Virus record (IMG/VR): IMGVR_UViG_3300010938_000808
Span: 1-50,503 of that record
Length of the DNA stretch: 50,503 nt
Reading direction: 5' to 3' (one strand)
Source: a virus
Position numbers and translations under genes: made by a program. The notes below the pieces were generated by a model. It did no database searches. It was given only the letters and a program-made list of their open reading frames with translations, and was not told the DNA's origin. This document shows, in pieces, positions 905 to 46,186 of this stretch. Positions within the stretch are counted from its first letter, which is position 1. Each line of letters opens with the position of its first letter.

Positions 905-1531
905 TTAGGATGCTTGACATACATTAGTGATTCCCTTTTTGTCTTTGGCTACAAAAAAGGCTTGATCTGCCTTTTGAGCTAGTTCATCCGAGTGAGTAAT
1001 CAGCAAAATTCTAACATTAAGCTGTTTTGATATTTTTTGAATCAGCTCACCAGCTCTCTCTAAATTCTGTAAAGCAACATATCGAAAGGGCTCGTCCATT
1101 ATCAACAGTGGCTCAGTTTTGGGACGAGACAAAGACCAAATAGCCAGCCTCAAAGCAAATGACAAAACATCTACTAACCCGCCCCCTACGTCTGTAAGTG
1201 GATCTAATGATTCAAAAGAGTTTTGAGAATCTAACTTACAATCGCATTCTATTTGATTACGGCGCTGTACGAATTCGACATTGAAATCATAAGTAATCCA
1301 AGGGAAAACTCCTTTCAAAGCATCTGTTCCCAGCTGAGACAAGCAAAATTGTATAGAATTCTGAAGTTTTAAGTTCCAATCTTGTAAAATCTCCGCAGCC
1401 TCTTCATGGTGAGAAATAGACCGAAGGGCGTGCTTTTTCTGAATACGGGCTTCGCGCAGTTGGCTGGATAGGGCCTGCTCTTTTCCCTTCCATTGATTCC
1501 ACAAGGCCTCCAGCTCTTCAGACTTCTTCAT
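905..1531 (-). CDS. Rad50/SbcC C-terminal half (ATPase lobe II)
   Basis: The protein has 208 residues. It starts with a helical, coiled-coil-like region (1-60) and ends with the C-terminal ABC half-site: signature GGGLVDVLSFALRLAIW (about 116-132), Walker B LLIMDEPF (about 142-149) and the His switch LLITHSDEL (about 176-184). It has no Walker A and no zinc hook; these lie in the separate gene at 2718-3635. The two products should pair to form one Rad50-like ATPase with the Mre11 nuclease (1834-2766). Short phage proteins of this C-half type with the same RRN-EC and GGG-VD motifs are known to me from other phages, so the split is not unique. It follows the coiled-coil gene at 1534-1782 with a 2-base gap. 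Confidence 0.85.
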   Translation of the reverse strand: MKKSEELEALWNQWKGKEQALSSQLREARIQKKHALRSISHHEEAAEILQDWNLKLQNSIQFCLSQLGTDALKGVFPWITYDFNVEFVQRRNQIECDCKLDSQNSFESLDPLTDVGGGLVDVLSFALRLAIWSLSRPKTEPLLIMDEPFRYVALQNLERAGELIQKISKQLNVRILLITHSDELAQKADQAFFVAKDKKGITNVCQAS

Positions 1532-1533
1532 TG

Positions 1534-1782
1534 CTATTGGTCCTCATTAAGTTTGAATTTTTTAACAATGGCTTGGTATTTTTCCGAAATAGTTTGACTA
1601 AGATCTTCTAATTCTTCAGTCATTATATTGACTAGACACTCGGCCTCGTGCAAAGACCTAACAGACCAATCTTTCATCAACTGATCTTGTAATAGCTGGA
1701 GCTGACCTTCTAAGCGATGAAACTTATCTTCAATCCCTTCTATTTTTGCTTTCATTTCTATTAATTGTTTTTCTATCCCCAT
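1534..1782 (-). CDS. Small coiled-coil protein in the Rad50/Mre11 operon
   Basis: The protein has 82 residues, almost entirely helical with heptad-like hydrophobic spacing (IEKQLIEMKAKIEGIEDKFH at the start, then LEGQLQLLQDQL). GGAGG precedes the ATG. It sits between Mre11 and the Rad50 C-half. The family is not recognised. It could lengthen or bridge the coiled coil of the split Rad50, but that is inference from position and predicted structure. Confidence 0.7.
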   Translation of the reverse strand: MGIEKQLIEMKAKIEGIEDKFHRLEGQLQLLQDQLMKDWSVRSLHEAECLVNIMTEELEDLSQTISEKYQAIVKKFKLNEDQ

Positions 1783-1801
1783 TGTGGAACCTCCTTCATT
1801 T

Positions 1802-1814
1802 ATTATAAATTATA
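1802..1814 (-). promoter_or_regulatory. Tandem TATAAT boxes in the Mre11/coiled-coil gap
   Basis: The 51-base gap downstream of mre11 carries two minus-strand TATAAT hexamers (1809-1814 and 1802-1807). The -35 side is poor: TTAAAT at 17 bases from the first box. It could be a weak internal promoter for the last genes of the block. Confidence 0.25.
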
Positions 1815-1833
1815 AACGGATCTTTTTCTTTAT

Positions 1834-2766
1834 TTAAGTCTCTCGGGCTGCCTCTAGCGCAGTTTGAATAATTTTAGACACTTGAGGCTTCAATTTTTCT
1901 GGTTGGGGAACTAGGCTAGAAATAGATGTAACTTCCCCTTCAGACTCTGAAAGTTTTTTTAGTTTGTCCAAAAATTCGTCTAGATGAATAGAGCTTAATT
2001 CATATTTTTTTGAAGGATTTATAAATATTTCAGTTTCAGAGAAAGATAAAGAATCTTCTGGAAGATTGATTACGGACACTGAATTGTCCTCAGTATGCCA
2101 AAGCAAAACCTGAGGAACAAAATTCTCTTTTAGCAAATCAAAAGATTGAATGGTAAGGCACCCAGGATTTACTACCAATTTGTGGCCGCGCTTGATAGAA
2201 AATTGTCGGTGGAAATGTCCGGTTAAGAATAAGTCAAAATCCAGCTTGAAAACGTCTTCTAAGTCTAAATAGCTATCTTCAGTTAGCCAATGGGCTGGGT
2301 AGTCAGGGAGTTTTAGCATGGTATGTGCTACATAGACTGAATGATGATCCAGAAACCAAGACGGCCTATTTTCAATTTTGTCTCCCCAATGGTAGCAAGA
2401 GAGAATGTTAATTTTTTTGCTTAGCCACAAAACATTAAGCGCACTTTTTACCGACATATCCATATTGTGATAAGGAAGATCATGATTTCCGTATATAGTA
2501 TAAAATTGATCAGGAAGATATTCCATTGTGAGTGATATTAAATAGGGGGACGATTTCCAATGATGAAATAAATCTCCAGCGTGAATTACTGGACAATTGT
2601 ATTGTTTTTGAAGCAGGTAGACTTTCTTGACTTGTTCCCATTGCGATTCAAAAAACTTTTCATTTCTACAGGTGGGAATACTGTCTCTTAAATGCCAGTC
2701 TGCCGTTAGAATCGCAGTTACCGGCTTCTTGTTTTTTTGGGGAATTTTTGTCCGCACAATGGACAT
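1834..2766 (-). CDS. Mre11/SbcD-like nuclease
   Basis: Metallophosphoesterase-fold exonuclease, the partner of Rad50/SbcC in double-strand-end processing and recombination-dependent replication. Visible metal-binding motifs in order are TADWHLRD, HAGDLFHHW, YGNHDLPYH, VAHTM and LTGHFHRQF. All five phosphoesterase motifs are present, so it should be active. The likely start is the ATG at 2766 (MSIVRTKIPQ, 310 residues) with AAAGGA about 10 bases upstream; a longer frame reaches 2790. Either way its 5' end overlaps the 3' end of the Rad50 N-half gene, in the bases that encode that protein's zinc hook. Confidence 0.9.
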   Translation of the reverse strand: MSIVRTKIPQKNKKPVTAILTADWHLRDSIPTCRNEKFFESQWEQVKKVYLLQKQYNCPVIHAGDLFHHWKSSPYLISLTMEYLPDQFYTIYGNHDLPYHNMDMSVKSALNVLWLSKKINILSCYHWGDKIENRPSWFLDHHSVYVAHTMLKLPDYPAHWLTEDSYLDLEDVFKLDFDLFLTGHFHRQFSIKRGHKLVVNPGCLTIQSFDLLKENFVPQVLLWHTEDNSVSVINLPEDSLSFSETEIFINPSKKYELSSIHLDEFLDKLKKLSESEGEVTSISSLVPQPEKLKPQVSKIIQTALEAARET

Positions 2767-3635
2767 ATCTCGGGCATCCTTTCGTTCCATTCTTTTCTGG
2801 CTTTTTCTAACTCTTTGTTGAGAGTGTCTAGCTGAGATTGAATGGCTAAAATTGATGATATGCTTTCCTGAAGTTTTTGGAGTTTACCCTGTTTAACTTT
2901 CATGTCTTGGTGGAGTTTTAGAAGTTCGTTTATTTCATTGCGGAGAATCATGTAAGGTTTTAGTTTTCCCAGTTCTACTTCTATCTTATTAATATCTTCA
3001 ATAATTTCTGTTAGAGATTGAATGCTATTGCTTAATTCCTCTGCTCGGTTTTCTTGATTTTTCAATTCTTGTATGTCCTGTTGAATTTCGACTAGATTTG
3101 GAATTCGACTAAGTTCCTCCTCTAGCTGGATAATTTTTAAATCCAGTCCTTTGGCAGAATTATGAAGATTCCGAATTTGCTTAAGGATCCAACTGTTTGC
3201 TTTAGATAGAATATCTAATTTAGTAACTTTTTGGAGTAGATTAGCCCTTTCCCCTGAGCTGAGGGAAAGAAAGAATGGAGGATCAGTTTGGAATTGAAAA
3301 TTGATATAGTTAATCGGTAAAAACTGACTAACCTCCTCTGGAACGTTATTCCCAAATGCTTTCAGTTCCGAATCATTTATGCGATACAGATTGACCGTCT
3401 TATCTTTGATTCGAGAAAGAGTTCCTCTCTCCGGGATTTTCAAACTAACTTCCGTAGTTCCACCCCAGTGAGACCTAAACGAATCTCCGCTGGGGCGATT
3501 CCAAAGCAACCATCTCAACGCTCTAACTACAGCAGTTTTTCCCGAGTCGTTGTCTCCTAGTATTGCCGTAACACCTGGGCCGATTTCCAATTCTGTATAA
3601 TGGTGGCTTTGGAAATTTTTCAAGATTATTTGCAT
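2718..3635 (-). CDS. Rad50/SbcC N-terminal half ending in a zinc hook
   Basis: The protein has 305 residues. Residues 1-45 carry the N-terminal ABC lobe with Walker A GDNDSGKT (about 28-35). The rest is ATPase lobe I followed by a long coiled coil (about 150-280). The final residues hold CPLCGQKFPKK, the CxxC zinc hook that normally sits in the middle of Rad50. The protein therefore stops right after the hook. The returning coil, signature and Walker B are encoded at 905-1531. This is a natural split, because both genes have their own start, an SD (AGGAAG here) and intact motifs. Confidence 0.88.
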   Translation of the reverse strand: MQIILKNFQSHHYTELEIGPGVTAILGDNDSGKTAVVRALRWLLWNRPSGDSFRSHWGGTTEVSLKIPERGTLSRIKDKTVNLYRINDSELKAFGNNVPEEVSQFLPINYINFQFQTDPPFFLSLSSGERANLLQKVTKLDILSKANSWILKQIRNLHNSAKGLDLKIIQLEEELSRIPNLVEIQQDIQELKNQENRAEELSNSIQSLTEIIEDINKIEVELGKLKPYMILRNEINELLKLHQDMKVKQGKLQKLQESISSILAIQSQLDTLNKELEKARKEWNERMPEICPLCGQKFPKKTRSR

Positions 3636-8064: not shown

Positions 8065-10683
8065 TTAGGTAATTTTATTTAGATTCCAGTGCTTTTTCAT
8101 TGATAAAGGCTCTCCAACATCGCATATTTCGAACTCAACCTCTAGAGGGACATTTATCCAATTCCATTGTCGTTGTAATTTTTTCTCGGCTAATCTTTTC
8201 AGAACTTTTGCGCACCATTGAAGTTCTTCTGAAGGACATTCTACTGTTACTTCATCATGCACCTGGCTTACTAAGCGACTTTGTTTTTTATTTTGTTTCA
8301 AAAGTTGATCAAATTCTATCAAAACCCATAACAAACAATGAAAAGCGGTGCCTTGTATCGGATAGTTAGAAACCTGCTTTCGGTCCATTAATCCGCTACA
8401 TCGAAAACCAGTCAGCATTTCTATATAACCATTTTTTATGTAGTTTCGCCACATTCTTTCTTTCCATGCGGAATATGTTTTGTAACGCTCGTTCCAGAAG
8501 GAGTCTTCCACTTTCTTCACGTGTTGCTCGAAGCGATTAAATGACAATAAGTTCCCCCTTCGGCCCAATCGAACTAGCTTTTTTTGTTCCAGATGCTCTA
8601 GCGCAGGCGTACCGTCTTTCAATCGAGAGTCTGCGGCCCATTTAATGAGATTCTTAGTGCAATTTACGTAATAATCTCCATAAAACTGAGGGAATACGAA
8701 GGAGTTCTTAGCAGCTTGTCTAAGGCGAGATTCATTAGGATCGTGCTTATCTAGAGAATCGAGAAGAAATAGCTCAATTGCCATATCACGATGCATATCA
8801 CCATTGAGAGTGTCTTTGATTAGTTTTTCGTCCTGCGTGTAAACACAAGCAATACGAACCTCTATCCCAGAAAAGTCCATAGACAAAAACTGTTTCCCGG
8901 GGCGAGGGTATAATACACTTCGACACATTTTCATTGTCTCGAGATCCCGTTTGGGGAGATTTTGGAAATTGGGATGATCTGAGCTAGATCGATATGTTCT
9001 GGTGGTGTGAAGCTGAAAAAATGGATGTAAAATTCCATCGCATTGTTCTCTCAAAAATTGGTCTAAGTAAGTGTCTCGGATTTTTTTGAGCTTGCGAATT
9101 TCTAAGATTTTGTCTAATTCTGGAAGTTTCAGTTCCTTTAATGCTTCATCATCAGTGGAACCTTTCCCTGAGGCAGTTAATTTTAAAGGCGGGGTCTTCT
9201 TGAACTCGTATAAAAATTTAGATAGCTGATCATTAGAATTGATATTAAACTTAGAAGGACCAACAAAAGTCTTCCACTGCTGTCCAAATTCGGATTGGAC
9301 TAGCTCAGCCGTTAGATGATCAATGGTGCGGGATAATTTGTTTTTTAGCTTATTACATTTTTCCGTTGCTATTACGATTCCATTTTGTTCCATATTTTCC
9401 AAAGCTATTGTACCATTATGAAATAGGCGATAGGCTTTACTGAGAGAAGGTGATTGAGATATTTGAGAAATTTGGATTTGAGCTAGACGATAAGTTAGAA
9501 GTGCGTCCATACCACAGTACTTTAACAGGTCTCGGGTTTTTTCATGATTTCTTATCAGAAGCTCTATCTTGTTTTTGGAATTAGCCCCTTTGTTGGAGCT
9601 TTCTACAGAACTTAAAAAGGGAGCCACAGATTCATCATAATTTGGAAGGCCGAATTGAACATAAGTCTGAAACTTGAGACTAGTTATCCCGGCTCGGTTA
9701 TCTAAAATATGAGCAGCAATCATTGTATCCCACTTCCAGCCTTTTACTTCACATTTCAATCGTGCGCGGCTCCACATCTCCTCAAACTTCATATTATGAG
9801 CAATTTTTTCAATTTTATCATTAGCCAGAAGTCCTTTGAGCAGTTGGAGTTGCTCCGAGTCAGATTGATCTACCAGAGATGCTATGGCTTGATTTTCGCT
9901 CAGAGCGATTCCAATAGCCACTATCTTATGCCCATCCGCCCAAGGTTTTAGCCCAGTAGTCTCATAGTCAATGGCTATGGTAGAGCCTTCTGGAATGTCT
10001 CGAATCCATGAAAGGTCTTCAGCGATTTCAATATACTTATCTAAATCATCTAAAGTTGGAAAGTTTTTCTGGGTTAACTTGATCGCGTTTCGAAGATCCC
10101 TTTTCCATTTTCTGGATATTTCTGGGGCTTCTCCTGTTCTGAGAATAAAACTGGGATGGTATGTTGGGCATATGAAAGATCTTAAGATTTGGTCTGGTAT
10201 ATTCCATCCAGCCCATTTCTCCATGCTTCCAATATCCTTTTTCCAGTTCATTCCGATTACAGATTCAACAGCGCAAGATCCTAATAAAATTATTACTTTC
10301 GGGTTATATGTTTTGATTGCGCTCAAAACTTTGTATCTGCAAAAGGAGATTTCCTTGGATGTTGGGGCACGATTAGATCCGCTTTTAGTCGTTGGTCGGC
10401 AGTTAACTGCATTTATACTTATGCAATCTTCAAACAGTTCCACTCCCAAGCTTCTCATAGTTTTCTGAAGTAGTAAACCGGCTTTTCCTTGCCATGGTTT
10501 TCCTCTTTGGTCTTCCACCTCACCGGGAGCTTCCCCCACTACCATGATATTTTTCTTTCCTTTGCCAAAGGGCTCTATACAAGGAGATTTGGCATTAAGA
10601 TACAGTTGACAATCAGAACATCTCCCTGGCAGACTTTCTGGTTGAGATGTTCCAGCCTTTATCAAAAGTCCTTGTTTAATCAT
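8065..10683 (-). CDS. DNA polymerase I (family A) with N-terminal uracil-DNA-glycosylase domain
   Basis: The protein has 872 residues and three parts. Residues 1-~205 form a family-4-type uracil-DNA glycosylase: CxxC (C22, C25), GEAPGEVED, NAVNCRP, a later Cys in EISFCRY and YHPSFILR, so all four iron-sulfur cysteines appear present. Residues ~230-400 form a 3'-5' exonuclease with DYETTG, AHNMKFEE and YCGMDALLTYRL, so proofreading is likely. Residues ~410-872 are the polymerase: motif A MDFSGIEVRI, motif B RQAAKNSFVFPQFYG (one residue longer than in bacterial PolI) and motif C QVHDEVTVE. ATG overlaps the clamp gene's TGA as ATGA. The fusion would couple uracil detection to synthesis. Confidence 0.93.
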   Translation of the reverse strand: MIKQGLLIKAGTSQPESLPGRCSDCQLYLNAKSPCIEPFGKGKKNIMVVGEAPGEVEDQRGKPWQGKAGLLLQKTMRSLGVELFEDCISINAVNCRPTTKSGSNRAPTSKEISFCRYKVLSAIKTYNPKVIILLGSCAVESVIGMNWKKDIGSMEKWAGWNIPDQILRSFICPTYHPSFILRTGEAPEISRKWKRDLRNAIKLTQKNFPTLDDLDKYIEIAEDLSWIRDIPEGSTIAIDYETTGLKPWADGHKIVAIGIALSENQAIASLVDQSDSEQLQLLKGLLANDKIEKIAHNMKFEEMWSRARLKCEVKGWKWDTMIAAHILDNRAGITSLKFQTYVQFGLPNYDESVAPFLSSVESSNKGANSKNKIELLIRNHEKTRDLLKYCGMDALLTYRLAQIQISQISQSPSLSKAYRLFHNGTIALENMEQNGIVIATEKCNKLKNKLSRTIDHLTAELVQSEFGQQWKTFVGPSKFNINSNDQLSKFLYEFKKTPPLKLTASGKGSTDDEALKELKLPELDKILEIRKLKKIRDTYLDQFLREQCDGILHPFFQLHTTRTYRSSSDHPNFQNLPKRDLETMKMCRSVLYPRPGKQFLSMDFSGIEVRIACVYTQDEKLIKDTLNGDMHRDMAIELFLLDSLDKHDPNESRLRQAAKNSFVFPQFYGDYYVNCTKNLIKWAADSRLKDGTPALEHLEQKKLVRLGRRGNLLSFNRFEQHVKKVEDSFWNERYKTYSAWKERMWRNYIKNGYIEMLTGFRCSGLMDRKQVSNYPIQGTAFHCLLWVLIEFDQLLKQNKKQSRLVSQVHDEVTVECPSEELQWCAKVLKRLAEKKLQRQWNWINVPLEVEFEICDVGEPLSMKKHWNLNKIT

Positions 10684-11771
10684 TGCTTTTTTACAGCAAG
10701 AGCTAAAGCGTAGATCTCTTTATATTTGTCTAGTTCTGTCATAATTACAATTGCAATAAAGTTTTTAGAGCTTTCGACAAAACCAATTAACGATTCCTGA
10801 TTAATTCCTGCAAGTAAAAGTTCCGAATCAAAGTCAATGCTAAAATCAGGTAGCTCTTTTAAGCAACCAGCAGAAAATGATTCCTTAAAACTCGCAATCT
10901 GAGTGCTTCTTGCTATGACACACGTATTTTCACTTTTTTGTAATTGAGTAAAGGGCTGCTCGTCTTTACTGCAAAAAGCGCTAGCTCTCTTTAATGTAGG
11001 AATTAAGTCGGGAACTTCTGAGACTTTATACAAATGCACAGAAGCAAAAGACTTCCAAATATCTGTTAGCTTGTCGAATTCTTGAGCTCCAGCATCGGCA
11101 GTTACTATCAATAGCTTAATCTCTATATTGTTTGGAGTTAGGAAACTAATTAATTCGGAGTCATAAAGCATTATCTTATTGATATTATACTTTGTTAATG
11201 CTTGAGCGGATTTAGCTCTTAAGAATAGATTATCTATCTCAAGGCCAAAATCAACTTTCCATGCACGAAACCCATCAGTTACTTGTATTGCGGTTTGCGT
11301 AAAGTTCAATAAGTCAAAAGGAGTGCATAATGCTTTTGCCGCAATTTCAATTCCTTTTGGAAGCAATTTTGCGAAAATATTTTCATGAATGTCAAAAGTT
11401 CTCAAAAGATTACCATTGCTTTGCCACATAACAGGAACTTCAGCTTTACTCACAGTAAGCGAGCAATTTATCCCACTATGCTCAATTATTATCTTTGAAT
11501 CTTCTATCGTTAGTATTGACGTTTTTGAATTGTCAGGTAATAAGTCAATGATCGAATACCACTCATTGAATGGTATTTGTATACATTTATCATAGCATAA
11601 GATTTCCGAAGGAATTTTCGCAGCAATATCAAATCCTTGTGCTATAATTCCTTCATTATAGAGTAGTAACTGAAATGGAACTATTTTAACGTCTGAACAT
11701 GCTGCGTAAATTGGTTTAGTAATAGCAGTTAATCGTTTAAGTTCAGAACATTCAATTTCAATCTGTTTCAT
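10680..11771 (-). CDS. Probable DNA sliding clamp (beta/PCNA-like)
   Basis: The protein has 363 residues from the ATG at 11771 (MKQIEIECSEL), which has AAGGGAG 7 bases upstream. A longer frame to 11849 would run through a strong inverted repeat and has a poor SD. The sequence shows alternating beta strands and the length of a three-domain clamp, with an N-terminal ECSELKRLTAITKPIYAA helix-strand pattern and a C-terminal FIAIVIMTE strand. It overlaps the polymerase gene by 4 bases, and the clamp loader follows the polymerase. Context is the main support, because clamp sequences diverge strongly. Confidence 0.6.
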   Translation of the reverse strand: MKQIEIECSELKRLTAITKPIYAACSDVKIVPFQLLLYNEGIIAQGFDIAAKIPSEILCYDKCIQIPFNEWYSIIDLLPDNSKTSILTIEDSKIIIEHSGINCSLTVSKAEVPVMWQSNGNLLRTFDIHENIFAKLLPKGIEIAAKALCTPFDLLNFTQTAIQVTDGFRAWKVDFGLEIDNLFLRAKSAQALTKYNINKIMLYDSELISFLTPNNIEIKLLIVTADAGAQEFDKLTDIWKSFASVHLYKVSEVPDLIPTLKRASAFCSKDEQPFTQLQKSENTCVIARSTQIASFKESFSAGCLKELPDFSIDFDSELLLAGINQESLIGFVESSKNFIAIVIMTELDKYKEIYALALAVKKQ

Positions 11772-11802
11772 TGCACTTTCTCCCTTCATAGTTTTTATAG
11801 AA

Positions 11803-11850
11803 AATGAATTCTGAGTAAGTCTAGTAATTAAAGCTTGCTCAGAATTCATT
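11803..11850 (-). repeat. Long inverted repeat before the clamp gene
   Basis: The 17-base arms at 11803-11819 and 11834-11850 pair with a single G-T wobble around a 14-base loop; the outer 13 bases (AATGAATTCTGAG and complement) are perfect. It lies between the stop of the KEKV protein (11860) and the clamp start (11771). On the minus strand it is followed by TTTTCTATAAAAAC, so it could be a leaky terminator, an mRNA-processing or stability hairpin, or an operator. Confidence 0.7.
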
Positions 11851-11859
11851 CTCTTGATC

Positions 11860-12375
11860 TCATATTATGTTTTTCTTACGAAGAGCACGCATAAATCTCC
11901 AACTAATATAAACTCCAGTATCGGTTGTTGTTTTTGCAACATTTACACCCAAAGATTCAAGTTTCTCAGTAATTGCAGTTTTTAGTTCCTTGTGTTCGCA
12001 ATCAAACCCAAGTTCAGAAAACGCATCAGCAATGATCTCAAAAACATCAATTTTGGATTTTTGCCTTAGTCCTTTCTCTTTTACTTTCTCCTTTACTTTC
12101 TCCTTTACTTTCTCCTTTACTTTTTCTTTAGTGGGTTTCTCTTTCGAAGGCGTTTCTTGCTTCTCCTCTTCTAATTTGTCTAACTTGAGTATAGATTTCA
12201 ATAATGTTGTTGACTTAGCAGAAAAATGATCATTTTTCCAGTCAACAAGCTCTCCTGCTTCTTTAATCATCTCAATAAGCAAATCAAGATCTTCTTCGTC
12301 AGGGTTCAAAGCTGGATCAAGACCTAATACTTCATTCATTTCTTCTGCAAGCTTCCTGATTCCCTTTACGTCCAT
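11860..12375 (-). CDS. Hypothetical protein with KEKV tandem repeats
   Basis: The protein has 171 residues. The N-terminal ~70 residues are acidic and helical. A Lys/Glu-rich linker follows with KEKVKEKVKEKVKEKVKEK (about residues 83-101), coded by 12-base tandem repeats. The C-terminal ~65 residues look like a small folded domain (IDVFEIIADAFSELGFDCEH...VYISWRFMRALRKKNII), possibly winged-helix-like. AGGAGGG precedes the ATG. It is first after a candidate promoter and upstream of clamp and polymerase. Family not recognised. Confidence 0.7.
   Translation of the reverse strand: MDVKGIRKLAEEMNEVLGLDPALNPDEEDLDLLIEMIKEAGELVDWKNDHFSAKSTTLLKSILKLDKLEEEKQETPSKEKPTKEKVKEKVKEKVKEKVKEKGLRQKSKIDVFEIIADAFSELGFDCEHKELKTAITEKLESLGVNVAKTTTDTGVYISWRFMRALRKKNII
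12080..12127. repeat. 12-base tandem repeat, about four copies
   Basis: Plus strand unit TTTACTTTCTCC occurs at 12080, 12092 and 12104, with a decayed fourth copy at 12116. It encodes the KEKV repeats of the gene above and is prone to copy-number change. Confidence 0.85.
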
Positions 12376-12449: not shown

Positions 12450-13514
12450 CTACGTAAAGCGCTTACTTTCAGTATCTCCATGGTTTTGAGACTCTGCTTT
12501 TAAGCTCCGTGCAAGTCTTAATTTTTCTAGTGTTGAGCGAACAAATGTTTTATTTTCATAGCTAACCAGTATATTGAATTGGAATCCAATTTTGTTCAAA
12601 AAAGAGTTAAAGTCATTAACTCTATCTTCGAACCGCTTGAGAGAGTAAAATGTATATCTGTGATAAAACCATGGTCGTTTGCCATACTTATTTTCAATAT
12701 AATTTACAATATCAGAAAACGCTGCATTAAATTCTAACACAGATAGTAAATACATAAAAGCATGATAATTTAATATTTCGTTATGTAAACTATCATCAAA
12801 AAGTTCTTTGAAAAAAAATGAATAGCTTCTTGCTCTTTGCACTATAAGATCCCTTTGGCAAGGTAAATAACGCGACAGTAATCCACGATCGATTAGCTCG
12901 ATAAAAGGCTGATGTTTTTTTTCCACTGTTTCTGCTATTATCGTGGGGCGCTTATATGTATGGGGTATAAACAATAGTTTTTTATGATCAGGATTATAGA
13001 TTACAAATCTAGCGTATTTTCTTGCAAACAATGCTACTGTAGAGTCAGCACTATCAAATTCAAAACGCTTGAAAAAATCAAGGTCATTAAGCCCAAATCC
13101 ATGAAAGCTAATACTTTCAAGAATATCAGCTGGAAAATACCTTCGAATTGTTATCAACCATGGAACTGTCAAGTCTTTGCCAAAAGCAGCTATTCCGCCA
13201 ATAGCAATTCTTTTGTAATTATTTATATACTTTGAAATAATTTCTAAGGGCTCGGGATAATGAATTGTAGGAACAGGATTAAGGCCATTACTCTCCATTA
13301 TCTTCTGATTCTCATAAGTTTTTATCGGATTTCCTATTACATCTAATACAGCATATTCAGTGATAATATCCTTGTTTTCATGTAAGAACTTAATATAACT
13401 GTCTATGTTTATATTAATTCCTTTTGTGAATGCACTAAATGCCCCTGAATCCACAAAAACTTTATCAATCCATGGTTCTAAATAGAATGTTTCATTTGTA
13501 ACATTACCTTGCAT
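12450..13514 (-). CDS. dpdA: DpdA-like DNA guanine transglycosylase
   Basis: The protein has 354 residues and resembles the TGT family in its DNA-acting DpdA branch. VDSGAFSAFTKG (Asp22) matches the TGT DSGGF motif, IAIGGIAAFGKD the GGLAVGE-like loop, and SFHGFGLNDL...FDSADSTVALFARK the nucleophile region. It would exchange guanine in DNA for a 7-deazaguanine made by the three upstream genes. DpdA proteins lack the tRNA-binding zinc site of TGT, and none is seen here. The N-terminus is short: the DSGAF motif starts at residue 22, earlier than I expect for phage DpdA. The SD GGAGGTAG is good, and the gene overlaps the FolE fusion by 11 bases. Confidence 0.82.
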   Translation of the reverse strand: MQGNVTNETFYLEPWIDKVFVDSGAFSAFTKGININIDSYIKFLHENKDIITEYAVLDVIGNPIKTYENQKIMESNGLNPVPTIHYPEPLEIISKYINNYKRIAIGGIAAFGKDLTVPWLITIRRYFPADILESISFHGFGLNDLDFFKRFEFDSADSTVALFARKYARFVIYNPDHKKLLFIPHTYKRPTIIAETVEKKHQPFIELIDRGLLSRYLPCQRDLIVQRARSYSFFFKELFDDSLHNEILNYHAFMYLLSVLEFNAAFSDIVNYIENKYGKRPWFYHRYTFYSLKRFEDRVNDFNSFLNKIGFQFNILVSYENKTFVRSTLEKLRLARSLKAESQNHGDTESKRFT

Positions 13515-14400
13515 TTCTACCTCCGAATATAAGCGACATCAATTCTGCTCTTGCTGCTATCCCTTTTTGAGTAGGCTCTAAGAATACCCCGGTCAAACTT
13601 GATGTGATCATTATACTGCTTTGCTTTTCAACCCCTCTCGCCCTCATGCATAAATGATTTGCTTCTATTATACATGCAGCTCCAATACATTGTAATTTTT
13701 CTTGTAGAAAATCGACAACATTTTTTCCAATTCTCTCTTGGATTTGAAGCCTTTTCGCAAAAGTATCTATAATCCTTGCAAGTTTACTTATACCAATTAC
13801 TTTCCCGTTACTACCTGGAATATAAGCAACATGCGCCTTTCCGAAGAAAGGAAGAATATGATGCTCACAAAGAGAATAGAATTCTATATTCTTTAGAAGA
13901 ATCATCTCATTATAACCTTCCATATTGAAAGTTTTTACAATCTCATCAAGATTTTGATGATATCCCAAGCACATTTCTTTTAGCGCTGCAATAACTCTTT
14001 TTGGAGTCTCTTTAAGGCCATCCCGGTTAGGATCATCTCCTAAGTATTCGATGATTCGTGCAATATTCTCTTCAATTCCTTCATGCTGTAGAGAAGGATG
14101 TTGACGCTCCCAAGGAAATGAAACCCATACTCCAATCAACCCCTCAGATTGTTTATCAACCAAAGTAACAAAAGGTTTTGAAGGATATTTTTGTTGATAG
14201 TAATTTTTTGTCCTTCCTGAGTCAAGAATATCATCTAAAATAATATCAGCATCATCTGGAGAGATACATGGAATAGCGTTTCTAAGTAGAATGCATGCTA
14301 TCATGCCACCATTAGGTACTCCATATATTTTCTTTTCTGAAATATCAAACTTTGCTATTCTCTGCCTTATATCATCCCAGCTAAGTATATACTTATCCAT
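13504..14400 (-). CDS. folE: Phosphoribosyltransferase-GTP cyclohydrolase I fusion
   Basis: The protein has 298 residues. Residues 1-~98 look like a type-I phosphoribosyltransferase: YGVPNGGMIACILLRN, the PRPP loop IILDDILDSG (53-62) and WVSFPWERQ. Residues ~105-298 are a complete GTP cyclohydrolase I with zinc ligands C178, H181 and C251 (SLCEHH, HLCMRARGV). FolE makes dihydroneopterin triphosphate, the first precursor of 7-deazaguanines. The PRTase could salvage the guanine released when DpdA swaps bases, returning it towards GTP; this is inference from the fusion. It lies between queE and dpdA, with overlap into dpdA. Confidence 0.88.
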   Translation of the reverse strand: MDKYILSWDDIRQRIAKFDISEKKIYGVPNGGMIACILLRNAIPCISPDDADIILDDILDSGRTKNYYQQKYPSKPFVTLVDKQSEGLIGVWVSFPWERQHPSLQHEGIEENIARIIEYLGDDPNRDGLKETPKRVIAALKEMCLGYHQNLDEIVKTFNMEGYNEMILLKNIEFYSLCEHHILPFFGKAHVAYIPGSNGKVIGISKLARIIDTFAKRLQIQERIGKNVVDFLQEKLQCIGAACIIEANHLCMRARGVEKQSSIMITSSLTGVFLEPTQKGIAARAELMSLIFGGRNAR

Positions 14401-14411
14401 ACTTATCTCCT

Positions 14412-15071
14412 CTAAGGCAAATTTACAATTTTATGGATTTGGATTGACAATGTAATTCTATTCGGATCAATACTGCTAGAGAATATTACAAACTGTATAA
14501 TCTCGTTAGCAAGTTTCGGATCTGCGTTCAATGGGCTCAATAAGACCCTTCCTTTGTATCCCAAACTGTCTATCTTCAATAAATCCTTTGAAAACCACTT
14601 AAGATCTTTTGCATCATGAATTACATACTTGACAATAATGTTAGGAGATTCCCAGCGTTGATTGTCGTTCATATATTTACTCATTCCGCTAGAAGGACAC
14701 TTTCTATCAATAATCCAGTATGCTTTTTTAATAAAATCTCCAGGGATTCCTATTGATCCATTTGTCTCGACTTGGACAAGAAAACCCCTGCTATATAAGT
14801 CATCAATTAGTCTGACAATATCTTCATATGAGTTTGCAAGAGGTTCTCCTCCTGTTAGCAAGATTTGTTTGATTCTATAGCTTTCAATCTTTTTGAGTAA
14901 TTCATCGAGATCATATAATACTCCACCATACATGTCTTGTGCTCTCTTTGTATCACACCATATGCACTTCAAATTGCATCCCTGGAATCTCACAAAAAGA
15001 GTTATACTGCCTTGATGAAAGTATCCACCTTCTCCTGATATAGATACAAAGATTTCATTAACATTAAGCAT
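14412..15071 (-). CDS. queE: QueE-like 7-carboxy-7-deazaguanine synthase (radical SAM)
   Basis: The protein has 219 residues from the ATG at 15071 (MLNVNEIFVSISGEGG), one base after the queD stop, with GGAGATG upstream; a longer frame reaches into queD but is unlikely. Motifs are ISGEGGYFHQG, RFQGCNLKCIWCDT (radical-SAM CxxxCxxC cluster) and LLTGGEPL (SAM-binding GGE). It converts 6-carboxytetrahydropterin to 7-carboxy-7-deazaguanine (CDG). It is the third enzyme of the pathway, and no queC follows it. Confidence 0.92.
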   Translation of the reverse strand: MLNVNEIFVSISGEGGYFHQGSITLFVRFQGCNLKCIWCDTKRAQDMYGGVLYDLDELLKKIESYRIKQILLTGGEPLANSYEDIVRLIDDLYSRGFLVQVETNGSIGIPGDFIKKAYWIIDRKCPSSGMSKYMNDNQRWESPNIIVKYVIHDAKDLKWFSKDLLKIDSLGYKGRVLLSPLNADPKLANEIIQFVIFSSSIDPNRITLSIQIHKIVNLP

Positions 15072-15072
15072 C

Positions 15073-15465
15073 TCACATCTCCACTTCAGCCCAGCAATTA
15101 GGAGTCTCGTAAAGAATGACTTTATCAAGCTTGATTTCCTTGTCATTTATTGACTTTTCGATCCAATCAACAATTATTGAAGCAATCCATTCAGCAATTC
15201 GTTCTGCTGTTGGGCAATCAAAGGGGAATCCGATATTGTGCAAATCATTCAAAAGAGAATGATCTAAAATACTTGTAATTCTTTGATTTACTACTGCTTT
15301 AATATCTCCAAAATCAATCAACATTCCTTTATTATTAAGCTTGTCCCCTGATAAGCAAATAATCAATGTATACGTGTGGCCATGAAGGTTTCTGCATTTC
15401 CCTTTATGAGTAGGAAGAAAATGCGCTGCATCAAACGTTGTTTTATAGCAAACCTTTGTCTTCAT
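15073..15465 (-). CDS. queD: QueD-like 6-carboxytetrahydropterin synthase
   Basis: The protein has 130 residues, the usual length. Zinc ligands are His in DAAHFLP and both in NLHGHTY, the catalytic Cys precedes them in KGKCRNLHGH, and DHSLLND, PTAERIAEWI and the late ETPNCWAEV Glu complete the site. It turns dihydroneopterin triphosphate into 6-carboxytetrahydropterin. It is the first gene of the modification operon. GGGGGGAAGTGAG precedes the ATG. Confidence 0.93.
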   Translation of the reverse strand: MKTKVCYKTTFDAAHFLPTHKGKCRNLHGHTYTLIICLSGDKLNNKGMLIDFGDIKAVVNQRITSILDHSLLNDLHNIGFPFDCPTAERIAEWIASIIVDWIEKSINDKEIKLDKVILYETPNCWAEVEM

Positions 15466-15514: not shown

Positions 15515-17050
15515 TTATCTCCTATAGGAATGAAGAACTGGTCTTCCAATTTGTAATCTTCCCAAAACAGTCACAGGTCTCAGCGGATCAAAGTCTGCCT
15601 CTCTTACCACAATCTCATTTATTCTTATCATACCAATCCGTTTTTCCTCAGGAGTCTGATTCAACCCATACATCGCTGTGACGTGGGCAAATTTGCGCTT
15701 ATCTTCGCTGAATTCGCTCATCGTCAGAATTGATTTTTTATAGCCATCGGCTTTTATCTGAGTGGCAGTTAACACTAGGCAATTAAACTCTTGTGACAAA
15801 GATCGTAACCTTTGCCAGATACGATTCTGCTGATGCCGATACTCTAAGCGGGCAAAATCCGCATCAGGGGCTAATATATCTGCATAATCAATTATAATTA
15901 GATCCGGATTGAATCCTTCACTACGCTTCAGGAAGGTTATTTTATTCTTAATTTCTCTGATAGTTAATGTTTCATTGGGATATGTTAAGATTTTGAGAGA
16001 TCCCTTAGTTTTTCTACCAAAGCGAATAAGATATTTATAAGCTTCCTTTTCCTGGAGAGGGGTTTCCGCTTCTCTCCAAAACAGCCAAGGAAACCCTTTC
16101 ATTTTTTCACAATTATGGCAGATCTTATGATTTGGGTTTAGTTTAGCTGCATTGATCAATGAATCATAATTCAATGCACTTTCCTCTTCATCTACGGTAA
16201 AAATTGGACTTCCAGAATTCTCCCTAGCAGAATTATCGCACTCATCTACTAAGTTCCACCAGCAGTCCAAGTCAGCAATCCACATACCATTACAGTATCG
16301 CGGATCATCCGACTTCTTAGCTAACCAGATAACAATCCTGCGCAATTGTTGCTCCTCTGTCATATCCCCAGCTTGGAAAAATAGGACTTTAGAACCAAAC
16401 CTCACTGCTCTCATAGCCAATTCTATCAATAGGAATGTTTTCCCAATTTTTTCCCTTCCCATTATTGCCACGAATGCTCCGCGGCACATTTCACGATCCC
16501 AGAACTCTCCTAATGCTTTGGGGGTTTTGATCACAGAAGACTGTTTCTGAGAAAATGCAGAAGCAATCTTTTTTCTAACACTAGTGGAAAAAGGATCTAG
16601 GGGTTCACCAAATTCCTCATTATAATCAACCCCTAATTCAAGCAGAGAATTTTCAGCTTTATCAATTTCATTACGTTCTAAATATTCAGAAGCCTTAGAA
16701 ATCTGATATGCAATTTTTCGCTTTTTGAGATAATTTAGAGCTTGGTCAATAAGGTATTCAGAGCTTTCTGGGTCTGGGGCTTCATATGACTCCAAAACAC
16801 TTCCAACCCACTCTGCAATATCATTATCAAGATGGGGTAAATTAGAGTAGAAAATTTGCTTTATGTTTTCTCTGGGGGCTCTAGAGTATTCTTTCCAAAA
16901 GCTAAGGCACCACTTAGCTATCACACGGGAGGCTCTGGATTCCAAAATTTTTGGATCCAGAAAGTTGATAATCTTTTTTAGAAAACTATCCGAGGTTATT
17001 GCAGCTTGAATTATCCTACGCTCAATGAAATCACCCGATTCATTCTCCAT
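15515..17050 (-). CDS. DnaB-like replicative helicase
   Basis: The protein has 511 residues. The N-terminal ~140 residues are helical, as in DnaB, and begin with ERRIIQAAITSDSFLKKI. The RecA-like motor has Walker A GREKIGKT (around 198-205), FFQAGDMTEEQ (Walker-1a region) and Walker B LIIIDYADIL, with LTATQIKADG after it. Between Walker A and B lies a long insertion with CHNCEKMKGFPW that may bind zinc; this is not typical of DnaB. It unwinds DNA at the fork and is loaded by the DnaC-like gene just upstream. AAGGGAAA precedes the ATG. Confidence 0.88.
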   Translation of the reverse strand: MENESGDFIERRIIQAAITSDSFLKKIINFLDPKILESRASRVIAKWCLSFWKEYSRAPRENIKQIFYSNLPHLDNDIAEWVGSVLESYEAPDPESSEYLIDQALNYLKKRKIAYQISKASEYLERNEIDKAENSLLELGVDYNEEFGEPLDPFSTSVRKKIASAFSQKQSSVIKTPKALGEFWDREMCRGAFVAIMGREKIGKTFLLIELAMRAVRFGSKVLFFQAGDMTEEQQLRRIVIWLAKKSDDPRYCNGMWIADLDCWWNLVDECDNSARENSGSPIFTVDEEESALNYDSLINAAKLNPNHKICHNCEKMKGFPWLFWREAETPLQEKEAYKYLIRFGRKTKGSLKILTYPNETLTIREIKNKITFLKRSEGFNPDLIIIDYADILAPDADFARLEYRHQQNRIWQRLRSLSQEFNCLVLTATQIKADGYKKSILTMSEFSEDKRKFAHVTAMYGLNQTPEEKRIGMIRINEIVVREADFDPLRPVTVLGRLQIGRPVLHSYRR

Positions 17051-36586: not shown

Positions 36587-37738
36587 TTGGTGAATCGGGA
36601 TCAATATGAGACCATAGATAGCGGGAAATTAGTTTTGGTTCATATCATTGATCCTGTTTTAATACAATCGTATGGTCCACGGCAATATTATGGTTGGGAA
36701 ACGGCTTTACGCGGCGAACGGATGGGAAAATGGATACTGGTTCGTAAGCAGGATTTTTCATCTCCCAATTCTAAATATAATCCGGTATTAAGCCGGTCAT
36801 TTTCCGGGGATATTTTTTCTAAAATGCTCCCTGATTGGAGGCGTTACTCTTGGAAAGAGCGGAAATGGGTTGGGGTTGCTTCTGAAGTGAATGAGGCGAG
36901 GGTTGCTTGGGTTCAAGATTTTTTGAAAGTTGGTGGAGCGGAGTTAAGTTGTGAAACTGCGGTCAGGGTAGGGAGGGCTTTAGGCTTTGGGGTGGACGTG
37001 ATAACGGGGGAGACTCCAGTTGAGATCTTCGACAAGATTTTGAAGTCTGCGCGCTTAGCAGTTATTAATAATATTATCGGATTAAGCACACCTCATCATA
37101 AAGTTTTGATAGAACATATCTGGGACAAAAATCTTCCTTACATCAAATGGGAGCATGATCATCGAGAGCTACTCAGACCGTATTTTTCCAGAAAGCTATT
37201 CCATCTTTCTCGAATGAATGTGTTTTTGAGTCCCCTGCATTTGGAAAACCATATGCAGAAGTTGTCTATCGAAGGGGTAGCCCTGCCTTTGGCGATAGAT
37301 CCAGACCAGTATCAGGCGGATTCTAGCGTAGAGCGAAAGCCTAATACGGCTTTGGTATGCAATGTTAGGAATTTTAAGACATGGAATAATTTGCAGAAGT
37401 TTATTCGCGATCATGCTGATTGGGAATTTTGGATTTTATCTGGGAATGGAAGCTTACCGGTGGAAGGGGGTAATGTTAGGCGAATCCCCAAAGTTCCTCC
37501 TAACGAAATGCCTAAGCTTTATAGCCAAGTGGAATATGTTGTGCATTTGTTGGATGGGTATGGGGCTGGAGAGAGAGTGGTGATAGAAGGGGCTTTATGT
37601 GGGGCTAAGATCATAACCAATGAGAGGGTAGGACACGCTTCTTGGGGATGGGAATGGAATGATAGAGATTTTTTAAGCTCTCAGTTGATTCAGGCTCTCC
37701 GAGATTTTTGGAAAATTGTGGAAAGGGAGATTCAATGA
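36587..37738 (+). CDS. Glycosyltransferase, GT-B/GT4-like
   Basis: TTG start (or GTG at 36590), AGGGAG upstream, 383 residues. The C-terminal half has TALVCNVRNFKTWNNL, FWILSGNG, IPKVPPNEMPKLYSQVEYVV and GYGAGERVVIEGALCGAKII, the nucleotide-sugar site of GT4-type enzymes. The N-terminal half contains IEHIWDKNLPYIKWEHDH. It is first of five sugar/methyl-transfer genes behind the capsid terminator. Confidence 0.75.
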   Translation: MVNRDQYETIDSGKLVLVHIIDPVLIQSYGPRQYYGWETALRGERMGKWILVRKQDFSSPNSKYNPVLSRSFSGDIFSKMLPDWRRYSWKERKWVGVASEVNEARVAWVQDFLKVGGAELSCETAVRVGRALGFGVDVITGETPVEIFDKILKSARLAVINNIIGLSTPHHKVLIEHIWDKNLPYIKWEHDHRELLRPYFSRKLFHLSRMNVFLSPLHLENHMQKLSIEGVALPLAIDPDQYQADSSVERKPNTALVCNVRNFKTWNNLQKFIRDHADWEFWILSGNGSLPVEGGNVRRIPKVPPNEMPKLYSQVEYVVHLLDGYGAGERVVIEGALCGAKIITNERVGHASWGWEWNDRDFLSSQLIQALRDFWKIVEREIQ

Positions 37739-38373
37739 ATAGAAGCTATTGGGAGAACCGTTATCAGGCTCAGGGAGAGAGGACGGTAGCATTTTGTGGT
37801 TTTAAAGAAGCTGAATTTCTTCAGAATAAAACTCGGCTTCAAAGATGGATGGAGGAGGAGCTGGGGAATGAATTTGCTGGGAAGATGGTTTTGGATTTTG
37901 GCTGTGGAGTAGGAAGGTTCTCCGAAGTGATAGAGCGGTGTGGGGGAATCGTATTTGGATTTGACATTGTGAGGTGGGCTCTCTCTAGGTGTCAGATGAA
38001 ATTTCCCTGGACTCGCTTAGCGCAGTATGACGGGGAAAGGTTGCCTATCAAGTCTGAGTCTTTGGAGGTGATTTTTAGCTGGACGGTTTTACAGCACATT
38101 CCTCCTTCTCAGATCAGTTTCGTAACTTCAGATTTCTACCGGATTTTAAGAAGTGGTGGGAAAGTAATAGCGTTAGAAAATGTGACTCCGAACCTTCCGG
38201 ACAAGTCTCATATTTGGTTTAGAAGCGTGGGGGATTATGATCGATTGTTGAGCCCTTTGAAAAGAGTTAGCGCTATGTTTTGGAAAGGTATGGATGGTAA
38301 TGAGGAAATTCATGCTTTGATGAAATATGTTAAAAGTGATGATGAGGATTGGGAGGAGGAGGTGGATATTTGA
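37735..38373 (+). CDS. SAM-dependent methyltransferase (class I)
   Basis: The protein has 212 residues from the ATG at 37735, overlapping the previous stop as ATGA, with AAAGGGAG upstream. Motif I VLDFGCGVGRFSEVIE, then GFDIVRWAL, PIKSESLEVIFSWTVLQHI and YRILRSGGKVIALE mark a Methyltransf_11-type enzyme. In this setting the substrate is probably a sugar. Confidence 0.85.
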   Translation: MNRSYWENRYQAQGERTVAFCGFKEAEFLQNKTRLQRWMEEELGNEFAGKMVLDFGCGVGRFSEVIERCGGIVFGFDIVRWALSRCQMKFPWTRLAQYDGERLPIKSESLEVIFSWTVLQHIPPSQISFVTSDFYRILRSGGKVIALENVTPNLPDKSHIWFRSVGDYDRLLSPLKRVSAMFWKGMDGNEEIHALMKYVKSDDEDWEEEVDI

Positions 38374-39269
38374 GCGGGGAAAGTATTTCGAGAATGGGCG
38401 AGGAAGGATCTCCAGTTTTGATTATTTCAACCTTTGGTCCAACCCGGGAGTATTCTGATCCCGATATGATGCAAAGCACTTTACGATTTTTCCTCGGATC
38501 TCTCCTGGGCCAAACTTCCCCTCGGTGGCACTCCTTCATAGCCTGCCATGATGAGCCCGTCTTTCCTGGGATCCCCAAGGATGATCGCATCCATTGGGAA
38601 AGCGTGTCCGGGGATCCTTCCCACCAAACTACGTTGGTTTATTTACCGTTGCCGGAGCGATTTGGTAATGGGATTGAGTTAATTAGGACGGCAAAGCCGT
38701 TTGATAATCCTTTGACTGATATGAGCCGGAAGACCTTCACTGCAATTGTTAGCGCTATGCGATTTGCCTTTGCGAATAAGTTAAAAAGATTTTGGCTTTT
38801 GCGGATGGACTCTGATGATATGATATCGCGGGATTTGGTAGAAGATTTGCAACGATGGGAAGTAAAGAATGGGATTAGAGCAGTATTCTGTCGGAAAGCA
38901 TATATGTTTGATCCGAGATTAGTTTTGATAGCTGAACATCGGTATTGTGGAGGATCCTTGACGTGCAATGCTTTATTATATGAGATGAACGAAAAGGGTG
39001 AAGTAACTCCTTATCCATATTACCTAGCGCAAGATCATACTTTGTTTGCGCGTCAGGTCAAATCAGACGGGATTCCGTATCGGGAGAAGGATTGGGCTTT
39101 ATGTATAACCACAAATTCAGGAAATTCCATCAGTGGTCGTCCTCCGATTTATGAGGAAAAGAATACTTCAGTAGTAGCTTGGTCGAATGAGTTGTTGGAG
39201 AAATTTGGAAAAGAGGTGGGAAGATATGTTTGGAATGGAGGAGTTTGGGATTGGGATGATCAAGAATAA
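38370..39269 (+). CDS. GT-A-like glycosyltransferase (rhamnosyltransferase-like)
   Basis: TTG start at 38370 overlapping the previous stop as TTGA, AGGAGGT upstream, 299 residues. It has LIISTFGPTREYSDP, FFLGSLLGQTSPRWHSFIAC, FWLLRMDSDDMISRDLVED (DxD metal motif) and YPYYLAQDHTLFA. The layout fits a family of putative rhamnosyltransferases; the actual sugar is unknown. Confidence 0.7.
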   Translation: MSGESISRMGEEGSPVLIISTFGPTREYSDPDMMQSTLRFFLGSLLGQTSPRWHSFIACHDEPVFPGIPKDDRIHWESVSGDPSHQTTLVYLPLPERFGNGIELIRTAKPFDNPLTDMSRKTFTAIVSAMRFAFANKLKRFWLLRMDSDDMISRDLVEDLQRWEVKNGIRAVFCRKAYMFDPRLVLIAEHRYCGGSLTCNALLYEMNEKGEVTPYPYYLAQDHTLFARQVKSDGIPYREKDWALCITTNSGNSISGRPPIYEEKNTSVVAWSNELLEKFGKEVGRYVWNGGVWDWDDQE

Positions 39270-39915
39270 CTCTAAACAGTTTGATCGCGAAGTTGCTGAG
39301 ATTGCTAATGGTCCAGAAATGATTGCGGTACAAGCAGTTTTGCCTTATATTTACTCCAAGATTCTAGAGTTTGGGCCAAGAGTTATTGTTCAGCTTGGTG
39401 TGGGGGTTAATGGGTTGGCGAGCCGGGTGATCTGGAGAGCAGCATATTTGGTGGGAGCGAGTTATATTGGAGTAGACTTGAAAGATTGCTCGAAAAACGA
39501 AGCTGCAGTTTATGGAGAATGGTTTTTTGCCCAAGCTGATGCTAGGGAATTTCATGCCAGATTTGAGAATGTGTGTTCCTTTTTGGGAATTCGCCCAGTG
39601 ATAGATTTGTTGTATATAGACCTAGACGAAAAGTATAAGACTACGAAGTTGGTTTGGGAGAATTGGAAGAGGTTTTTGTCTGAACGATGTATGGTTATGT
39701 TTCGTTGTTCTAATTTGCAAAAGACTATTTTTTGGCAAGACGGAAGCGTAAACCAACGTGGTTGGGATAATGATCGTGGGGTGATTCGCGTGATTCAAGA
39801 GGAGCTGGGGATTTTTTGGGATGAAAATGAGGTTTGGGATGGGAGGGCGAAAGGTTGGAAAATAAATCATCTGCCTTGGGGTGCGGGGCTGACCGTTTTG
39901 ACCAGGGAGAGTTGA
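39226..39915 (+). CDS. Methyltransferase-like protein (Methyltransf_24/CmcI-like)
   Basis: The protein has 229 residues from the ATG at 39226 (GAGGTGG upstream); an ATG at 39256 is an alternative. VIVQLGVGVNGLASRVIW is a motif-I-like SAM site, then YIGVDLKDCS, AQADAREFHARF and IDLLYIDLDEKYKTTKLVWE, where the Asp cluster would hold SAM or metal. It lies between a glycosyltransferase and a sugar aminotransferase, so it is a probable sugar O- or N-methyltransferase. Confidence 0.65.
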   Translation: MFGMEEFGIGMIKNNSKQFDREVAEIANGPEMIAVQAVLPYIYSKILEFGPRVIVQLGVGVNGLASRVIWRAAYLVGASYIGVDLKDCSKNEAAVYGEWFFAQADAREFHARFENVCSFLGIRPVIDLLYIDLDEKYKTTKLVWENWKRFLSERCMVMFRCSNLQKTIFWQDGSVNQRGWDNDRGVIRVIQEELGIFWDENEVWDGRAKGWKINHLPWGAGLTVLTRES

Positions 39916-41045
39916 AGGTTCCTCTCTTTTGGCCTCCGGCACAGAGCGTGGACTTGATGCTGGCTGAGCTAGAGGATTCTTTAAGGAGCCGATGGTGGGG
40001 GGAAGGTCCTAAGGTAGAGGAGTTTGAGAAGCGGTTTGGGGAGAAATTTGGTTTTGACCCTGATCGATGCGTTATGACTAATAGCGGAACTGCAGCATTA
40101 CATTTGGCATATCGGTTAAGTGGAGTAAGGGAAGGAACAGAAGTTATAGGTCCAGTTTTAACTTGCACTGCTACTTACCACCCTGTGCTATTATTAGGGG
40201 GAAGTGTAGAATTTGCTGATATAAACCCTAGAACTTTGACTCAAGACCCTTGGGATATGATAGCGCGGATTAGTAATAAGACGAAGGTTTTGGTAGCAGT
40301 TCATTTAGGCGGGTGGGTAGATGTGGATGCTATGCTAGAGCTGAGAAAAGTAAGCCGCAGAGGGATTCGGCTTATAGAGGATGCTGCACAAGCTTTAGGG
40401 GCAGAAGGGTTAGGAAAGGGGGATTTCACTTGTTTCTCCTTTCAAGCCATAAAGGCATTGTCTACAGGGGATGGGGGAATGCTGGTTTGTCGAACTAAGG
40501 ATGATGCTGATCATGCCAGAAGACTCCGTTGGTTTGATATTGATCGGAGAATGAAAGCCGCTCAAGGATGGCAGGCTTGGACCAGACGTGGGATTACTTT
40601 TGATCAAGAGGAGCCAGGGTACAAATATCAGCCCACGGATTTAGATGCTGCAATCGGGTTGGCTGGGTTAGAAACTTTTGATCAAAACCAAGCTCACCGT
40701 CAACGGTTGGCTCGATTATATTTGGAGTTATTGGAAGGGGTGGAGCCGGTGCTTAAGCCGGGGTTTGACTGGGCTAGGGATTCGCGGTTTCATTCCTTTT
40801 GGCTACTTATGGTAAAGGTGGCGGGAGGAAAGCGGGATGATTTAGCAGAGTATTTATTCTGTGAGGGAATTGAAACAAACGTTGCACATTTGAGAAATGA
40901 TATTTTTACCGTGTTCGGACCTAGACGCGAAGACCTTCCCTTTATGGACCAAGTGGAGAATGAATACATTTGTTTACCACTGAATAATAAGATTAATGAT
41001 AAAGAAGTGCGTTATGTTTGCTCTAAAATCAAAGAATGGCTGTAA
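39912..41045 (+). CDS. DegT/DnrJ/EryC1-family sugar aminotransferase (PLP)
   Basis: TTG start at 39912 in a TTGA overlap with AGGGAGAG upstream, 377 residues. MTNSGTAALHLAYR is the PLP phosphate site, RLIEDAAQALGAE the Asp that binds the pyridine nitrogen, FSFQAIKALSTGDGGM carries the Schiff-base Lys. YKYQPTDLDAAIGLAGLE follows as usual. It puts an amino group on a keto-deoxysugar nucleotide. No dehydratase is in the window, so the keto-sugar would come from the host. Confidence 0.9.
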   Translation: MKVPLFWPPAQSVDLMLAELEDSLRSRWWGEGPKVEEFEKRFGEKFGFDPDRCVMTNSGTAALHLAYRLSGVREGTEVIGPVLTCTATYHPVLLLGGSVEFADINPRTLTQDPWDMIARISNKTKVLVAVHLGGWVDVDAMLELRKVSRRGIRLIEDAAQALGAEGLGKGDFTCFSFQAIKALSTGDGGMLVCRTKDDADHARRLRWFDIDRRMKAAQGWQAWTRRGITFDQEEPGYKYQPTDLDAAIGLAGLETFDQNQAHRQRLARLYLELLEGVEPVLKPGFDWARDSRFHSFWLLMVKVAGGKRDDLAEYLFCEGIETNVAHLRNDIFTVFGPRREDLPFMDQVENEYICLPLNNKINDKEVRYVCSKIKEWL

Positions 41046-41071
41046 TATAGCCCAAGGAGGTAATGGGAAAA

Positions 41072-42763: not shown

Positions 42764-42801
42764 GGAAATAGTTTTCAGTAGAAAAAAGGAGGTACTAAGC
42801 T

Positions 42802-43326: not shown

Positions 43327-43340
43327 AAAGGAATCTAACT

Positions 43341-44777: not shown

Positions 44778-44779
44778 AA

Positions 44780-45866: not shown

Positions 45867-45880
45867 GGGGGAAAGATGAA

Positions 45881-46183: not shown

Positions 46184-46186
46184 GAA

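Follow-up and report, generated by a model that had tools for sequence, protein, structure and literature searches.

Which base does a phage place in its DNA when it encodes a DNA-guanine transglycosylase together with the enzymes leading to CDG, and no QueC? The question is raised by virus record IMGVR_UViG_3300010938_000808, of which positions 1-50,503, i.e. the whole record, form the window analysed here. FolE, QueD, QueE and DpdA are encoded together on its minus strand at 12450-15465. The pathway itself is known; what is new here is a queC-less cassette with a fusion of a phosphoribosyltransferase (PRT) domain to FolE and with a short DpdA. According to the preferred reading, the phage would make CDG, the QueC of its host would convert CDG to preQ0, and DpdA would insert preQ0. 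This reading is given a probability of roughly 45%, and the recycling of guanine by the PRT domain is its weaker part.

The proposed route can be followed enzyme by enzyme. FolE would convert GTP to dihydroneopterin triphosphate, from which QueD would form 6-carboxytetrahydropterin and QueE would then produce CDG as a free base. The host's own QueC would turn CDG into preQ0. Phage DpdA would exchange guanines in the phage DNA for preQ0, and the resulting dPreQ0 would protect the DNA from restriction enzymes.

Gene content and setting of the cassette

The cassette is transcribed in the order QueD, QueE, FolE and DpdA from closely spaced or overlapping genes with intact ORFs, and its G+C content is 34% compared with 41% for the window. 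QueD (130 residues; 15073-15465, minus strand) scores 98.5 bits with TIGR03367, above the cut-off, and contains the motifs CRNLHGH, LDHSLL, CPTAE and YETPNCWAE. QueE, a radical SAM CDG synthase of about 219 residues (14412-15071, minus strand), is recognised by phrog_2076 (E 3e-35) and by its CNLKCIWC and GGEP motifs. Its listed ORF, 14412-15146, opens within QueD, and translation probably starts at the ATG at 15071, one base past the QueD stop. The 298-residue FolE protein (13504-14400, minus strand) matches PF01227 (E 8e-65) and, above the cut-off, TIGR00063, and keeps the zinc ligands C178, H181 and C251. At the sequence level, the motifs expected in functional enzymes were thus found in all three proteins. 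DpdA, the DNA-guanine transglycosylase (354 residues; 12450-13514, minus strand), is matched by phrog_887 (E 4.7e-39) and phrog_7068 (E 6e-15).

These family matches bear out the original prediction that the four genes are encoded together. The same holds for the absence of QueC and QueF from the window that it described: QueC (PF06508), QueF (PF14489) and YhhQ (PF02592) had no match anywhere in the 50,503-base record, and a family search of the whole record for a canonical TGT found none. The search for queC had been named beforehand as a check, and it covers a record whose right end lies inside tail genes. Compared with the phage preQ0 system composed of FolE, QueD, QueE, QueC and DpdA, the window has all the components but QueC within the extent of this record.

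The cassette is flanked on one side by a DnaB-like helicase gene (15515-17050, minus strand; phrog_19, E 2e-41) and on the other by the gene for a presumed sliding clamp (10680-11849, minus strand). The latter is named solely for its place: as in relatives, it lies between dpdA and PolA. It has no family match in Pfam or PHROG. An ORF of 171 residues with a tandem KEKVKEKV region (11860-12375, minus strand) separates dpdA from the presumed clamp; Pfam and PHROG searches gave no match for it. In relatives of the lineage, the 7-deazaguanine genes are likewise located between the DnaB helicase gene on one side and those for the clamp and PolA on the other; some relatives (L286 and L288) have the same slot without any cassette. 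The Queuovirinae-type cassette of Vibrio phage VpKK5 and Pseudomonas phage PaMx25 also carries QueE, QueD, FolE and DpdA by the clamp and PolA, and includes the same PRT-FolE fusion, 40-43% identical to that of the window over about 90% of the protein. It differs from the window by the presence of queC, a full-length DpdA and another gene order.

Several other features were observed in the window. A family A DNA polymerase encoded at 8065-10683 carries at its N-terminus a domain of the uracil-DNA glycosylase superfamily (PF03167), and SbcC/Rad50-like and SbcD-like pieces are spread over several ORFs near the left end (905-3635). A papain-like cysteine protease gene (PF00112; 27528-28376) lies upstream of that for the portal protein. 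Genes for methyltransferases, a DegT aminotransferase and glycosyltransferases were noted at 36587-47988, with the major capsid gene on one side and the head-tail adaptor on the other.

The base that DpdA would insert

The absence of queC is a recurrent trait. A set of 160 IMG/VR loci was collected in two scans seeded with FolE and DpdA alignments, and the operons were typed with profiles built for the analysis. In sets biased by these seeds, queC was present in 70 of the 72 complete DpdA-seeded operons versus 40 of the 66 FolE-seeded ones, 26 of which lacked it. PF06508 was also absent from the 30 queC-less records that were searched whole (5 to 170 kb, most of them fragments). On the DpdA tree, the distribution of queC requires at least four changes if well supported branches are counted and 13 under parsimony, so that its presence has changed repeatedly. 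Judged from this tree, queC has been lost several times and its absence is not an oddity of one contig. The original prediction had left two readings of such an operon open, the direct insertion of CDG and the supply of preQ0 by host QueC. Both are legitimate, and the queC-less operon is real.

In the first of these readings, DpdA would insert CDG itself, producing dCDG, a negatively charged base, and QueC would be unnecessary. The gene set does end at QueE, and many related records of up to 170 kb are devoid of queC. Cui et al. are said to have reported dCDG in phage DNA in 2023. The Mycobacterium phages Bipper and Typha provide cultured examples that share FolE, QueD, QueE and DpdA with the window and have no queC in or near their operon. 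The possibility that Bipper carries CDG, and thus the idea of direct insertion, was already raised along with the report that the mycobacterial host has none of the queuosine genes (PMC6884629). For these two phages host-derived preQ0 is consequently unlikely, and they speak for direct insertion as a general possibility. On the other hand, phages with DpdA but without the pathway genes were described that may draw on host preQ0 (PMC6884629).

The residues of DpdA separate the window from Bipper and Typha. Of the 30 positions that make up the pocket signature, 26 in the window DpdA fall within the range of queC-containing operons (median score 30), and DpdAs of queC-less operons with C14 mostly score 17 to 25, a comparison that measures resemblance only, no DpdA proven to take CDG being among the yardsticks. 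In one group of the latter, D58 is replaced by Q and G106 by S. The window pocket is therefore not unlike that of queC-bearing phages, the feature that would have pointed to dCDG or dDG. At position 107, the glycine of the window is shared by nearly all DpdAs of queC-bearing phages, including the mycobacteriophage Quesadilla, which has queC, whereas Bipper and Typha have a lysine. These two phages further differ from the window by a host reported to lack QueC and by a FolE without PRT domain.

A second marker is C14, a paralogue of QueD (hhalign E 4.5e-9) that we take to be possibly the CDG decarboxylase DpdL. It was found in 16 of 31 queC-less loci versus 3 of 128 loci with queC (Fisher p 6e-11, kinship ignored), and a glycosyltransferase-like gene frequently comes after it. 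Within operons devoid of queC, the two genes lie between FolE and DpdA (L019, L025, L027, L031 and L059) or elsewhere in the cassette (L016, L048 and L064), and the pair suggests a further, perhaps glycosylated, 7-deazaguanine in these phages. The cassette of the window has neither C14, for which the profile gave no match in the window, nor its glycosyltransferase-like follower; Bipper is also without C14. Cellulophaga phage phiST and its relatives resemble the window in carrying QueD, QueE and FolE with no queC nearby, but they possess C14 (gp040) and no DpdA recognised by the profile of the analysis.

Because the pocket is of the queC type, position 107 is a glycine instead of the lysine of Bipper and Typha, and C14 is absent, direct insertion of the carboxylated CDG by the window DpdA is not favoured, though it retains an appreciable chance. 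The same three observations leave the claim of the original prediction that this gene set would favour an unusual product without support. As far as its residues and gene content indicate, the window appears to encode a preQ0-using system that relies on an outside QueC.

The phosphoribosyltransferase domain fused to FolE

The FolE gene (13504-14400) codes for a two-domain protein, in which an XGPRT-like PRT domain (residues 1 to about 98; 14104-14400, minus strand) precedes GTP cyclohydrolase I (residues about 105-298). AlphaFold predicted both domains confidently (mean pLDDT 94.5). Alignments and PDB searches identified in the PRT domain a PPi loop (VPNGG), a PRPP loop (DDILDSGRT), K83 and W92. 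When the PRT profile was compared with solved structures, XGPRT was the best match (5xtk, E 4.6e-8; 1a95, E 1.9e-7). A fold search with the model of the whole fusion returned only FolE chains among its best 50 matches, the larger domain filling the list. Among 42 PRT-FolE fusions, P29, G32, D56, D57, D60 and G62 are invariant, and the PPi and PRPP loops nearly so. The domain shares with E. coli XGPRT (Gpt) both loops, an N-terminal KYI(V/L)(T/S)WD and the base-binding lysine, K83 aligning with K115 of XGPRT. It differs from it by the fusion to FolE and by a shortened flexible catalytic loop region, with 24 residues from G32 to D56 compared with about 49 in XGPRT according to the alignments.

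The fusion is not restricted to the window. No earlier description of it was found in the open literature, which is weak evidence of absence. At least two PRT-FolE fusions are present in cellular genome records, both in MAGs and neither pointing to the host of this phage. Of the MAG fusions listed, one belongs to a DpdA cassette; the other has QueD, QueE, C14 and a terminase-like gene as neighbours. An intein that contains an HNH endonuclease domain splits PRT-FolE in two loci (L157:5206-6948 and L164:4627-6342).

Each insertion of a base by DpdA sets one guanine free. Since a guanine PRT is here fused to the enzyme that uses GTP, the arrangement suggests a recycling of guanine, and the PRT domain may recycle the guanine expelled by DpdA. 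By binding PRPP and the purine, it would convert the released guanine to GMP, which may re-enter the GTP pool used by FolE. We tentatively propose that PRT-FolE closes in this way a guanine cycle (expelled guanine to GMP, GTP and FolE), the modification being fed by its own waste. The flexible-loop region being shorter than in XGPRT, the domain may also bind rather than catalyse and have a binding or regulatory role.

An alternative substrate would be CDG or another 7-deazaguanine base, converted to a nucleotide and opening a modified-nucleotide route beside DpdA. A precedent exists in TubE, a CDG-specific phosphoribosyltransferase of tubercidin synthesis (PMC6112128), and FolE, to which the domain is attached, catalyses the first step towards CDG. 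However, the residues of the domain match XGPRT, a guanine enzyme. Furthermore, among the 78 loci with enough flanking sequence, PRT-FolE occurs with DpdA in 76 and with queC in 57, so that CDG is not the end product that these phages share. An action on CDG is accordingly regarded as improbable, and guanine as the better candidate for the base recycled beside preQ0 insertion.

Extent of the record and of DpdA

The right end of the record is located between the major tail protein and a tail chaperone-like ORF that runs off the end, and the genes for the tape measure and further tail proteins are absent from it. The genome is thus incomplete and the record is a fragment, in which the cassette itself looks complete. 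As the record ends inside tail genes, absence from the window differs from absence from the genome, and a phage queC could exist on the missing part. Such a gene would agree with the presence of queC in nearly all DpdA-seeded operons and in records of the same lineage such as L275, L284 and L296. Nevertheless, queC sits inside the DnaB-clamp slot in these relatives, and the slot of the window is bounded on both sides without containing it. A queC on the missing part is hence possible but not likely, and its chance is judged to be slim.

The window protein is, by its alignments, a divergent and short homologue of DpdA. It is devoid of the N-terminal stretch of about 50 residues that corresponds to barrel strands 1-2 of queC-type phage DpdAs. 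There is no in-frame extension upstream of dpdA, and a good ribosome site (GGAGGTAGAAATG) precedes the dpdA start. The C-terminus has diverged: there, W161 and further positions with almost no variation in other DpdAs are poorly kept. The AlphaFold model accordingly comprises strands 3-8 only and not a complete (beta/alpha)8 barrel, with pLDDT values of 85 to 97 for residues 21-140 and a poorly defined C-terminal region. The catalytic and base-recognition residues D22, D58, G106-G107, H138 and D157 are kept, of which D22, D157 and H138 are conserved in all or nearly all aligned rows. Structural alignment of the model gave as best match DpdA 7ui4, the solved bacterial DNA preQ0 insertase (Z 12.0), with tRNA-guanine transglycosylases at Z about 10 to 11. 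The alignment profile also placed 7ui4 first among solved structures (E 0.0045), and Foldseek of the model yielded generic TIM barrels, none of them below E 0.001. In the DpdA tree the window falls among queC-bearing rows, on a long branch (1.99) and with an unsure placement, and a single-sequence scan confirmed no close relative.

A home for the missing segment was sought in two ways. As a separate small ORF of the window, the best candidate (3218-3361, E 0.16) falls within a different gene, out of frame with it, and was rejected. A move of the segment to the C-terminus of DpdA itself, observed in L015 and L023, was also rejected for the window, whose score of 3.7 bits is one that shuffled sequences reach as well. 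In other loci, small ORFs of 44-90 residues resembling DpdA strands 1-2 (MKIYLAG...LLSYY) are located just downstream of dpdA, frequently as tandem groups of two or three (L013:9868-10325, L060:8488-9128, L017:6193-6708, L061:9978-10549, L094:7464-7667 and L035:9351-9599). In L013 and L060 they occur even alongside a full-length DpdA.

With strands 1-2 missing and no separate copy found in the window, the activity of this DpdA is uncertain. The truncation, the model limited to strands 3-8 and the poorly kept C-terminal positions could reflect a decaying cassette in which DpdA is inactive and queC is gone too, but this has a comparably slim chance, given the good ribosome site, the confidently predicted core with its catalytic residues, the open remaining genes and the recurrence of a similar short form in many relatives (L014, L017, L018, L030, L059 and L094), which would be unexpected under decay.

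The presence of 7-deazaguanines in phage DNA being already known, the base used by a QueC-less phage is a directly testable question. The pocket signature combined with the presence of C14 would provide a sequence rule predicting which queC-less phages still use preQ0. If true, the guanine cycle proposed for PRT-FolE would link phage DNA modification to metabolism in a new way, and would do so in a large fraction of the phages that encode DpdA.
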